Shown here: positions 1 through 40,119 of the stretch, piece after piece
Numbering within the stretch: the first letter of the stretch is position 1
How the letters are laid out: every line of letters begins with the position of its first letter
Source of the DNA: Lactiplantibacillus garii
GTDB lineage: Bacteria; Bacillota; Bacilli; Lactobacillales; Lactobacillaceae
Assembly: GCF_003885105.1 (NCBI RefSeq)
Contig: NZ_QWZQ01000007.1
Coordinates: forward strand, 1 to 64,000
DNA: 64,000 bases
Reading direction: 5' to 3'
Notes under the pieces: model-generated
What the model saw: only the letters and a program-made list of their open reading frames with translations
Told to the model about the DNA's origin: nothing
Databases searched by the model: none
Program-made: the position numbers and the translations under genes

Positions 1-193
1 CTATATCAATTTCTTTTTACATTTAATAACCTGTTTTACAGACCATGAATGCTTGAATTAACGGGGTTAACCCATCCATTTCCCATCAAAATCATTATCA
101 ATTATAATAATATTTTCCATAAACAAATTAGAAATGCCTTTTACGAATATTTATCGATAATTAGGCCCTAAAATACGACTATTATTTTTTAAA

Positions 194-24550: not shown

Positions 24551-24594
24551 TTAACCGATTATTCCTGTTTTTGGAATAATCGGTTAGTTTTTGT
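24551..24594. terminator. Bidirectional terminator between the nucleoside hydrolase and AccB-like genes
   Basis: Perfect 14-bp arms TAACCGATTATTCC and GGAATAATCGGTTA are followed by GTTTTTGTT and preceded by AACAAAAAT, so it works on both strands. Confidence 0.88.
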
Positions 24595-24640: not shown

Positions 24641-25183
24641 TTAAATATCGTCCGGGGTATCCGGAATTAATTGAATCAACGGCTGGCCAAAGTTCACTTC
24701 GTCACCGTTCTTAACGAGTAAGGCCTTGACCTGACCTGATTGTTTGGCCACGACTGGCCGCATCATTTGCATAGCCTGGATCAACCCCACCTGCTGGCCA
24801 ACACTCACGTGGTCACCCAGCTTAACGTACGGGGCCTCTTCCGATGAATGGGCCTGGTAGTAAATGCCCACGACCGGCGCCGTGACGCACTCCTTCGGGT
24901 CAATTGGCGCGGGCTGTGGTGCCCGGGTCGCTTCGGGGGTCGACGCGACCGTTGGGGCGGGCTCGGCAGCCGGCGCTACCGGCGTACTGACCGGGGTCGG
25001 TGCGACCGGCGCCTGACTTTCCGCGGGTTGTGCGGGTAACGGCGTGGGTTGCGTCGAAACGACCGGCTTGCCGTGACCCTTTTTGCCCATTTGAATCTCA
25101 AACTCTTGATCACGATACTCAAAATTCGTTAAATTACTTTGTTCAAACTTATCCATTAATTGATAAATCTTATCTAATTCCAT
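24641..25183 (-). CDS. AccB-like biotin carboxyl carrier protein without the biotin-accepting lysine
   Basis: The protein has 180 residues. The N-terminus (1-35) has the AccB-type MELDKIYQLMDKFEQ helix. A Pro/Ala-rich linker covers residues 40-93, and the C-terminal 80 residues form a biotinyl domain with TAPVVGIYY, VKLGDHVSVGQQVG and SGQVKALLVKNGDEVNFGQPL. Where carriers have EAMKM, this protein has QAMQM: Gln139, codon CAA at 24767-24769, replaces the biotinylated lysine. The fold seems intact but biotinylation should be impossible. It stands alone, without accC, accD or accA nearby. The start at 25183 follows GGAGGG. It may be a decoy or regulatory paralogue, or a recent loss-of-function allele. 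Confidence 0.88.
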   Translation of the reverse strand: MELDKIYQLMDKFEQSNLTNFEYRDQEFEIQMGKKGHGKPVVSTQPTPLPAQPAESQAPVAPTPVSTPVAPAAEPAPTVASTPEATRAPQPAPIDPKECVTAPVVGIYYQAHSSEEAPYVKLGDHVSVGQQVGLIQAMQMMRPVVAKQSGQVKALLVKNGDEVNFGQPLIQLIPDTPDDI

Positions 25184-25286
25184 CAAACAACCCTCCAGTG
25201 GTTACGCATTGATTATAACGCATAGTTTACCGCAGGATTGTGGTGGAAGTATGAACGCTTCTTTAAGAATTCATTTATTTTCCGCG

Positions 25287-25607
25287 CTATGCCGATGCTA
25301 AGGCGTCGTTAGTGGGTAACACTTTAAATAAAAACAACGGTGCCGGGGACTTACCGGCGTTCGCGTAGGCCAGCACTGCGTCCACGTGGTCTAACTGCAA
25401 CAACCGGTTATCCAACTGCCACAACCCCCGTTGGTAATAATCGTGACAATACTGAACGAGGTTGGTCAGAAAATTACCAACCGCCTCGTTGACCGTATCC
25501 CCGCGACCATCCACACCCCAAAAGTCAGCGGATTCCACCCAGTAACGATTTTCTGAAAATTCACGGTAACGTCCCTCTTCGTGAACTAAAACTAAACGTG
25601 GTTTCAT
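25287..25607 (-). CDS. Small protein with HicB-like N-terminal half, function unknown
   Basis: This encodes about 106 residues. Residues 10-55 (YREFSENRYWVESADF..GDTVNEAVGNFLTNL) recall the HicB/DUF1902 fold, in which a beta-strand pair precedes GDTxxEA and a helix. There is no DNA-binding C-terminus and no adjacent HicA-like toxin, so it is not a complete toxin-antitoxin pair. The ATG at 25607 has GGGG eight bases upstream; a TTG at 25613 is the alternative. The resemblance is weak and rests on pattern only. Confidence 0.6.
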   Translation of the reverse strand: MKPRLVLVHEEGRYREFSENRYWVESADFWGVDGRGDTVNEAVGNFLTNLVQYCHDYYQRGLWQLDNRLLQLDHVDAVLAYANAGKSPAPLFLFKVLPTNDALASA

Positions 25608-25755
25608 TGCCAAGGCCCCTTTCGACTCTACCTACTAACATTGGGTCTACGATAGCATCACACCTAGGAGCTGACAATACGAAACGGCCAACCCGTTTCG
25701 AATTAAGGTTGTTAAGTAGTACCACCTTAATAAGTAACCTGGCTCGCCGTTTTAA

Positions 25756-26226
25756 TTAAGATTCTAAATGGGCTTCACGCGCTAAAAAGTAGCCGTGATG
25801 GTGTAGATCTTCCCTTAGATCCGCCATCGTAAACTGGTGATAGTAGTCGCGGTACTGCCGATCAGCCACGGTAAAGAGGTCCGTTAACGTCTCACTAATA
25901 TTAGCGGCAATCGGGGAGTGTCCCGCCTGTTCATCAGTCTTGGACGGCCCCGTGATAAAGCGCGCGTAACTCAACGTTGGCGGAATCGTTAAGTCGTAAA
26001 GGTCCCCCAAGTTCATGGCAGCGAGATCCTTTCCCAGCTGGTAACCACCATTTTTTCCAACCGTTCCAATCAAATATCCCTGCTTATGCAACACGGACAA
26101 AATGTTTCGAATCATGACCGGGTTTAAATTCAACGACTGTGCCAATTCCCGACTAGAGACCTTATTGGGTCGGTGGGCGTCTAAATAAAGTATACTGTGC
26201 ACCGCTACCGAAAAATCGAGTTTCAT
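25756..26226 (-). CDS. Rrf2 family transcriptional regulator
   Basis: The protein has 156 residues. The N-terminal winged helix contains KVSSRELAQSLNLNPVMIRNILSVLHKQGYL followed by GKNGGYQLGKD, the Rrf2 signature wing. The protein contains no cysteine at all, so it cannot bind the iron-sulfur cluster seen in IscR or NsrR and belongs with the CymR/YwnA-like cluster-free members. It is divergent from the DUF2075 ATPase gene across about 110 bases, which may be its target. The signal is unknown. Confidence 0.9.
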   Translation of the reverse strand: MKLDFSVAVHSILYLDAHRPNKVSSRELAQSLNLNPVMIRNILSVLHKQGYLIGTVGKNGGYQLGKDLAAMNLGDLYDLTIPPTLSYARFITGPSKTDEQAGHSPIAANISETLTDLFTVADRQYRDYYHQFTMADLREDLHHHGYFLAREAHLES

Positions 26227-38492: not shown

Positions 38493-39464
38493 TTATCGAA
38501 CCCGGGTAACTTCGCCACTGGTAAAACTTTCTCGTTGCCCCGTTGGTAACGTTAGGACGAGTCCCCCACGATCATCAATGGTGTCCGCAATACCGGTAAC
38601 GGCGCGCTGACCCACTTGCAACGTGACCGGCCGGCCTAAAATTACCGACTTTTCACGGTAAAATGGCAATAGTGCCGTGGAAGGGTATTGCTGATAAGCC
38701 GCATTAATTGCCACTAAAAGTGCGGCGGCCAACTGGTTACGATCTACGCTTGCCGTGGGAGCAATACCCTGCGCAATCGCAGTCAGTTCCGTCGGGAAGT
38801 CCTTAGTCGTTAAGTTCAGCCCGACCCCCACGATGAAAGCGGCGGTCGAAGTGGACTCCAACTCCATACTGGCCTCGGTGATGATGCCACCGACCTTGTG
38901 TTGGTTTAAAAAAATATCGTTGACCCACTTTAGGCCAAAGTCTTTGGTTGGAAAAAATCGTTGAAGAACTTTGACCACGCTCACCACCACCCCGGTCGTC
39001 AGCAACCCGACTTGCGAGAGATCATTAGTTGGATTCGGCAACACCAAACTAAAGTACAGGCCGGTTTGTGCCGGTGAATAGAACGTGCGTCCTAAGCGTC
39101 CGTACCCCGCCGTTTGCTGGTCGGCTAAAAACGCGGCAACTTGCGGCTGGGCCTGGCGACTCAGCGACTGTTTAGCTAAATACTGGGTCGACGCGGTGGT
39201 CGTAGCCACCTCGATTGGCCCGGTAAAGCCACTCCCCGCGGCCACTTTAATGGCCAAGGCGTCCAATTGCCGACTACCAGCGTACTGGTAACCCCGGTTC
39301 TTACGGCTGTCAATTTGATGACCACGTTTACGCAGCGCGTTGATTGCCTTCCAGACACTTTCCCGACTAATTCCGACCTGCTGTGCGAGTTGGTCTCCCG
39401 ATAGCCATTCGTCCGGGTGCGCCATTAACTGGGTTAAAATTTGTTGTTTGGTTGAACCACTCAT
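38493..39464 (-). CDS. birA: Bifunctional biotin-protein ligase/biotin operon repressor
   Basis: The protein has 323 residues. The N-terminal winged helix (residues 1-65) has WLSGDQLAQQVGISRESVWKAI. The ligase core shows GYGRLGRTFYSP (biotinyl-AMP loop) near residue 120, KWVNDIFLNQHKVGGI near residue 185 and a C-terminal SH3-like domain. It attaches biotin to carrier proteins and, as biotinyl-AMP holorepressor, binds the bioY promoter. It follows bioY by nine bases in one operon. Confidence 0.96.
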   Translation of the reverse strand: MSGSTKQQILTQLMAHPDEWLSGDQLAQQVGISRESVWKAINALRKRGHQIDSRKNRGYQYAGSRQLDALAIKVAAGSGFTGPIEVATTTASTQYLAKQSLSRQAQPQVAAFLADQQTAGYGRLGRTFYSPAQTGLYFSLVLPNPTNDLSQVGLLTTGVVVSVVKVLQRFFPTKDFGLKWVNDIFLNQHKVGGIITEASMELESTSTAAFIVGVGLNLTTKDFPTELTAIAQGIAPTASVDRNQLAAALLVAINAAYQQYPSTALLPFYREKSVILGRPVTLQVGQRAVTGIADTIDDRGGLVLTLPTGQRESFTSGEVTRVR

Positions 39465-39473
39465 GTTTTCCTC

Positions 39474-40037
39474 CTACGCTGGAATTTCAAAATCAATAAC
39501 GTTGCGGACCCGCCGCGCGATCATCACGGCAAAGGTCGCCTTGATCAAGTCGCCCGGAATAAACGCCAAGTTTGAAAGTAACGCCGGAGCTAGTCCCATG
39601 TTAGACTGAATTGCTAACCACACGGCCCCGACCACGTCGATAAATCCGATCCCGGCGATCCAAACGATCAATAATTCACGCCACCAGTTTTTAGCCATCA
39701 ACGCGTGGGTGCGCTGAAAAAGCGTCCCCATCAACACCGGTGCCAACAGCCACGCGACGAGGTAACCACCGGTTGGGCCAACAAAAACGGCTAACCCGCC
39801 ACGACCACCGGACAGGACGGGAAGTCCCAACGCGGCCAATGCCAGAAACAGACCCACGGCGACCGTACCGTACTTCCGACCTAACAGTTCCGCAGCCAAA
39901 AAGATGCCCATATTCTGTAAAATAATTGGAACCGGAATAAAGCCCACCGGAATTCCCGGAAAAAAGCCTAGAATAATTAATAGTGCCGTTACCATGGCAG
40001 TCTGTGTTAAGTGTTTAATGCGTTGTTGATTCGTCAT
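39474..40037 (-). CDS. bioY: Biotin transporter substrate-binding subunit BioY
   Basis: This 187-residue S component of an energy-coupling factor transporter has about six helices and the signature GGRGGLAVFVGPTGGYLVAW near residue 85 in the middle of the protein. It takes up biotin using a shared EcfAA'T module encoded elsewhere. The start at 40037 has GGGG ten bases upstream; the longer frame to 40097 reads through the operator. It is first in a bioY-birA operon under a BirA operator, consistent with a biotin auxotroph that scavenges the vitamin. Confidence 0.95.
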   Translation of the reverse strand: MTNQQRIKHLTQTAMVTALLIILGFFPGIPVGFIPVPIILQNMGIFLAAELLGRKYGTVAVGLFLALAALGLPVLSGGRGGLAVFVGPTGGYLVAWLLAPVLMGTLFQRTHALMAKNWWRELLIVWIAGIGFIDVVGAVWLAIQSNMGLAPALLSNLAFIPGDLIKATFAVMIARRVRNVIDFEIPA

Positions 40038-40068
40038 CGTCCGCACGCCCCTTTTATGAATTACTAAC

Positions 40069-40119
40069 AGTATAAGATAATAGTAACCCATTATCAATAC
40101 TATGGGTTACTATTATCTT
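40069..40119 (-). promoter_or_regulatory. bioY promoter with BirA operator
   Basis: Perfect 18-bp arms AAGATAATAGTAACCCAT (40074-40091) and ATGGGTTACTATTATCTT (40102-40119) flank ten bases. The half-sites ATAGTAACC and GGTTACTAT are 16 bases apart, the spacing seen in BirA boxes. The minus-strand promoter TTGATA (40092-40097) and TATACT (40069-40074), 17 bases apart, is covered by the repeat. Confidence 0.85.

Follow-up and report, generated by a model that had tools for sequence, protein, structure and literature searches.

A genus-wide BCCP paralogue of Lactiplantibacillus with Gln in place of the biotin-accepting Lys

What could a protein built like a biotin carboxyl carrier protein (BCCP, AccB) do once the residue that accepts biotin has been replaced? 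This question is raised by a gene of Lactiplantibacillus garii, whose product is here termed Q-BCCP. The gene lies in the window, i.e., the whole stretch of 64,000 nucleotides analysed (contig NZ_QWZQ01000007.1 of assembly GCF_003885105.1, positions 1 to 64,000). A sequence-only reading of the window had proposed either a stable non-biotinylated paralogue, acting as a decoy, an adaptor or a BirA sensor, or a recent loss of the attachment site.

The protein and its substituted attachment site

The Q-BCCP frame starts with an ATG at position 25183, with GGAGGG ahead of it at 25196-25191 (Table 1). The Pfam family Biotin_lipoyl matches residues 100-172 (2.5e-15), and the NCBIfam BCCP family TIGR00531 matches residues 1-171 (5.2e-32) with 111.5 bits, below its curated equivalog cut-off of 115.2 bits. 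As the TIGR00531 alignment begins at residue 1, the AccB N-terminal segment is retained, and the features by which AccB/BCCP proteins are recognized, namely this segment, the linker and a fold with thumb and hairpin, are all found in Q-BCCP. The domain aligns without gaps, thumb included, with E. coli BCCP (4hr7_B, 1bdo), its best solved relative. An otherwise intact biotinyl domain with AccB N-terminus and linker, as first described, is thus borne out.

In this alignment, the biotinyl Lys of E. coli BCCP faces Gln139 and the Glu at the -3 position faces Gln136; the motif EAMKM of biotin carriers accordingly reads QAMQM, and both substitutions are evident in the codons (CAA for 139, CAG for 136). 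The nearest Lys of Q-BCCP, Lys147, lies off the hairpin tip and is Gln in two of 21 orthologues.

A structure model of the domain, based on 29 alignment rows, has a pLDDT of about 95 and contains strands 131-137 and 140-145, which places residues 138-139 at the hairpin tip. The top Foldseek matches of this model include 1bdo (the E. coli BCCP biotinyl domain), chains of 4hr7 (a BCCP–BC complex) and 9a87 (Arabidopsis BCCP1), with TM-scores of 0.89-0.94 by target length. Confidence is low for the predicted N-terminal helix and two strands (block means 48-58), and an earlier model built from genus rows alone (mean pLDDT 50) was set aside. The fold adopted in the cell would be that of the domain model.

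Table 1. Features of the Q-BCCP locus and related genes in the window
Feature	Position	Strand	Basis or remark
Q-BCCP gene (AccB/BCCP paralogue, predicted non-biotinylatable, 180 aa)	24641..25183	-	ORF, Pfam, NCBIfam, alignment, structure model
N-terminal segment, helix and two strands	residues about 1-34		
Pro/Ala linker	residues 35-94		
Biotinyl domain	residues 95-172		
Gln136 (CAG), replaces Glu at -3	24776..24778	-	invariant Gln, 21/21
Gln139 (CAA), replaces biotinylated Lys, predicted hairpin tip	24767..24769	-	invariant, 21/21
Conserved -10, TATAAT	25212..25217	-	exact in 18/21 upstream regions
Conserved upstream element TTCTTAANNAANNNTTCAYAYTTCC, candidate activator/operator site	25245..25269	-	upstream-region comparison
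Probable terminator, inverted repeat then T run	24553..24585	-	read by eye
108-aa protein, sub-threshold PHD_like match	25287-25613	-	upstream of Q-BCCP, same strand
Rrf2-family regulator	25756-26226	-	best NCBIfam match HypR, 85 bits versus cut-off of 180
BirA with HTH, adjoining BioY	38493-40097	-	

Conservation, distribution and origin

An orthologue with an intact frame is present in each of the 21 Lactiplantibacillus genomes examined, and the 20 besides that of the window are 64-84% identical to it over the tblastn segment. All share the hairpin motif VGLIQAMQMMRPVVA, so the biotin-accepting Lys is replaced by Gln139 throughout (21/21), and Asn at position 164 is likewise invariant. The two Gln codons vary only synonymously (codon 136, CAA in 14 and CAG in seven; codon 139, CAA in 10 and CAG in 11). 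A recent loss is excluded by the identical motif in all 21 genomes; an isolated error in a gene whose orthologues keep Lys is contradicted as well, as no orthologue has Lys and the Gln codons have diverged synonymously.

Nei-Gojobori comparisons of the 210 pairs gave pN/pS ratios of 0.011 for the hairpin (residues 129-148), 0.093 for the domain (residues 95-172), 0.115 for residues 1-34 and 0.509 for the linker; the ratios are relative rather than absolute, because synonymous differences are close to saturation. No stretch of the protein is thus under tighter constraint than the former biotin hairpin, which shows that the site is in use and not decaying. Together with the fixed Gln and a Lys-bearing AccB elsewhere in the genome (see below), this purifying selection upholds the proposal of a stable non-biotinylated paralogue.

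Several searches point to restriction of the Gln form to this genus. In a genus-profile search of 301 Lactobacillaceae genomes, including 15 of Lactiplantibacillus, the lowest genus orthologue scored 296.7 bits and the best outsider among the matches listed 96.3 bits. Lys was present in all 63 further BCCP loci fetched, a subset of the profile matches listed; one of the 63 (L124) is from a Lactiplantibacillus genome. Alignment of 96 non-Q BCCP frames (94 distinct; loci L063 upward, 14 Q-clade frames omitted), 77 from outside the genus and 19 in-genus paralogues (10 next to fabF, eight of a mini-cluster type, one pxp-type), revealed Lys at 139 and Glu at 136 in every frame, and Glu (73), Asp (17), Gly (five) or Gln (one) at 164 but no Asn. 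A scan of contigs from 84,980 species yielded 15 loci, of which 13 were named Lactiplantibacillus and one, with the same motif, came from an uncultured Lactobacillus MAG; the last, from Agathobacter, was rejected as a BCCP with Lys. A DNA pattern for QAMQMM matched 22 of 397 family genomes, i.e., all 21 of the genus plus G156, in which the match proved to be a frame of a UvrD/PcrA-type helicase. Both the scan and the pattern require exact short words, so that diverged Gln forms elsewhere could escape them, and beyond Lactobacillaceae the distribution is that given by the exact-word scan. A literature search by titles and abstract openings, mostly outside subscription journals, returned no bacterial BCCP without the Lys.

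In a phylogenetic tree (near-duplicate rows L071 and L080 dropped beforehand, with a warning of long branches), the 21 Q-BCCPs form one clade on a long stem (support 100/99). Its neighbours, placed with weak support (90/38), are BCCPs encoded beside PxpB/PxpC-like and AccC genes; the AccB of fab operons is not the nearest relative. Genes of such 5-oxoprolinase clusters go by the names KipI/KipA and PxpA/B/C. The BCCPs of pxp/kip-accB-accC clusters in Lactobacillaceae also have the hairpin wording closest to that of Q-BCCP (e.g., VGQTVGVIEAMKMMHEVKA), but they are Lys-bearing and clustered with accC, whereas Q-BCCP is neither. PxpB/PxpC-like genes with their own accB and accC were seen at L124 (genome G012), L067-L070, L072-L074, L078 and L079, and the L124 cluster includes a PxpA-like gene too. 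Compared with the AccB/BCCP of acetyl-CoA carboxylase (ACC; TIGR00531, 1bdo, 4hr7), Q-BCCP has the fold, thumb, N-terminal segment and linker in common and, unlike it, lacks the biotin-accepting Lys, the Glu at -3 and an accC neighbour.

Down-regulation of an L. plantarum gene named accB3 in olive oil has been reported. This accB3 could be either the Q-BCCP gene or a pxp-type accB as in G012 (L124), and because of this ambiguity the observation was kept out of the evidence.

Promoter, neighbours and other carboxylase genes

The 25-base upstream pattern is exact in 16 of the 21 upstream regions, and its TCTTAA is present in all 21. It has no second exact match in the genome, and shuffles of the window give a mean of 0.03 matches with up to three mismatches. 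Given this conserved 5' block, Q-BCCP is probably transcribed from a regulated promoter of its own. As for a wider regulon, one exact site and three sites with three mismatches, compared with one in a reversed control, are too few to define one.

At the 14 contig-scan loci compared, the gene of the Rrf2-family regulator is always upstream on the same strand, and genes for a Schlafen-g3 helicase-domain protein and a PEBP-like protein lie further upstream on the opposite strand (14/14 each). The gene of the 108-aa protein is upstream at 13 of them, but this protein was rejected as part of a system, as it has no useful match and no homologous frame of at least 60 aa was seen at its place in L. 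herbarum (L025). A nucleoside hydrolase gene directly follows Q-BCCP at six of the 14 loci, and other genes do so elsewhere. The Q-BCCP gene is not clustered with accC and is unlinked to any ACC gene: accA, accC and further biotinyl domains have no match on the contig of the window, in agreement with the absence of further ACC genes nearby noted in the first reading.

A separate ACC cluster (the mini-cluster), fabH-accB-accC-accD-accA, is present elsewhere in the genome and is the only fabH-accBCDA cluster found in it; AccD and AccA were named from gene order and sequence. Its AccB (L010, 9646-10038, minus strand) bears ESMKLF and lacks the thumb, and is the second, Lys-bearing AccB for which a search had been suggested. 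The scores for this enzyme lie under the curated cut-offs: accA has a single match in the genome at 149.7 bits (cut-off, 319.3), and accC scores 459 bits (cut-off, 626.5). There are two strong accC-type matches, one being pyruvate carboxylase and the other accC. Residues 1-433 of the 441 of the cluster AccC align with solved biotin carboxylases, and catalytic-site motifs known from biotin carboxylases are present. The genome has six Biotin_lipoyl matches, and another BCCP with EAMKM is encoded in a decarboxylase-type locus.

With the AccB of the mini-cluster as query, matches were obtained in 11 genus genomes; the 20 misses listed, besides 182 further ones, include no genome of the genus. BCCPs with 33-45% identity to this AccB, possibly of the same type, exist in other genera, and no Q-BCCP was seen there; ACC of the mini-cluster kind may thus do without Q-BCCP.

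FabF scores above its cut-off in 10 of the 21 genus genomes, the L. garii genome not being among them; ten others have no match and one (G011) has a partial match of 114 bits. FabD-type matches of 193-225 bits, none reaching the curated cut-off, occur in the same 10 FabF genomes, whereas the 11 FabF-poor genomes have no match of at least 190 bits (G018 has one of 147 bits). FAS II thus seems to have been lost in about half of the genus genomes, while ACC remains, as fabH-accBCDA in the L. garii genome. As Q-BCCP is present in all 21, including the 11 without FabF above the cut-off, its role is independent of FAS II elongation.

Proposed function of Q-BCCP and alternatives

Proteins of comparable construction are known in plants: BADC (biotin attachment domain-containing) proteins, non-catalytic subunits of ACCase, are reported to be BCCP relatives without AMKL that act as glue or inhibitors (PMC11926652) and to compete with BCCP for biotin carboxylase (BC; PMC7712654). 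Like these, Q-BCCP is a BCCP homologue without the biotinylation motif and coexists with a Lys-bearing BCCP and with BC, both recognized by sequence. It differs in being bacterial and observed in a single genus, with lactobacillar BCCPs as nearest matches, and the likeness to BADC is one of organization.

We give about an even chance to the view that Q-BCCP is a non-biotinylated BCCP paralogue serving as a BADC-like regulatory or assembly subunit of a biotin carboxylase subcomplex. With Gln for Lys, it should neither accept biotin nor carry CO2; it would take a BCCP place in the AccC/BCCP subcomplex of ACC as a non-catalytic member, present its QAMQM hairpin to the partner, as plant BADC proteins do, and thereby tune ACC activity or assembly. 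Retention of the architecture, loss of the Lys and maximal constraint on the hairpin form the pattern expected of a pseudo-carrier whose hairpin docks into a partner, and the AccB-type N-terminus and thumb are most in keeping with an AccC/AccB subcomplex, which would be that partner. The effect would be either inhibition or assembly. The fuller version, to which we assign somewhat less than an even chance, holds that a BADC-like BCCP evolved in Lactiplantibacillus separately from plants, that with its Gln hairpin it occupies the docking site of biotin carboxylase (or carboxyltransferase) and sets malonyl-CoA output, and that it persists even in genomes without FAS II elongation. Several points weigh against a BADC-like role: a different biotin enzyme could be the partner; the gene is unlinked to ACC genes; its neighbours in the tree, with weak support, are pxp-type BCCPs and not the AccB of fab operons; the accA and accC scores under their cut-offs make the supposed partner complex itself unusual; and ACC of the mini-cluster kind may do without Q-BCCP.

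The first of these points amounts to the strongest alternative, which we consider doubtful but worth keeping in mind: Q-BCCP may be a regulatory subunit of a different biotin enzyme (pyruvate carboxylase, the decarboxylase or a pxp-type carboxylase), or an adaptor that has the biotinyl fold but an unrelated partner. The nearest Lys-bearing tree relatives in pxp clusters with their own AccC, the pyruvate carboxylase and decarboxylase-type BCCP encoded in the genome and the distance from ACC genes are all consistent with this. The tree placement is weak, however, the six Biotin_lipoyl matches of the genome include no pxp-type BCCP, and the N-terminal segment and thumb favour an AccC/AccB-type partner.

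Less probable still is a decoy or biotin-status sensor for BirA, an unmodifiable substrate that would set the choice of BirA between ligation and repression. The window contains a bioY-birA pair at a distance of about 14 kb, and a BPL-family gene is located 12-23 kb from Q-BCCP on the same contig in 10 of 21 genomes; another BPL-family match in the L. garii genome is a 335-aa frame on contig C114. Mutants of E. coli BCCP point to a role of E119 and E147 in recognition by BirA; of these features, the Glu at -3 and the acid at 164, both have been lost in Q-BCCP along with the Lys (Gln136 and Asn164, 21/21), although position 164 alone is indecisive, being Gly in five of the 96 Lys-bearing frames. 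Some Q-BCCP genomes, e.g., G002 and G004, moreover have only one BPL-family match above 50 bits. Of the functions first suggested, the BirA decoy has thus lost ground through replacement of the -3 Glu and residue 164, and a carboxylase adaptor or regulator appears to fit the sequences best.

Attachment of a different kind, with another hairpin residue or Gln itself bearing a ligand, is very improbable: the extreme conservation of the hairpin would suit a modification site, but Lys147 is variable and away from the tip, and we know of no ligase that joins a swinging arm to Gln. That the gene is dead or decaying, or its sequence in error, as the missing catalytic Lys and the score slightly under the TIGR00531 cut-off might suggest, is refuted by conservation, i.e., by 21 intact frames with one motif, the hairpin pN/pS of 0.011 and the conserved promoter block.

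If Q-BCCP is a BADC-like subunit, it would bear on a question disputed in plants, namely whether BADC proteins act on the carboxylase as inhibitors or as assembly factors (PMC11926652; PMC7712654). With a counterpart in bacteria of a non-pathogenic genus open to genetic work, a clean test of these roles would become possible. Also, counts of accB in lactobacilli may take in a protein that is non-biotinylatable.
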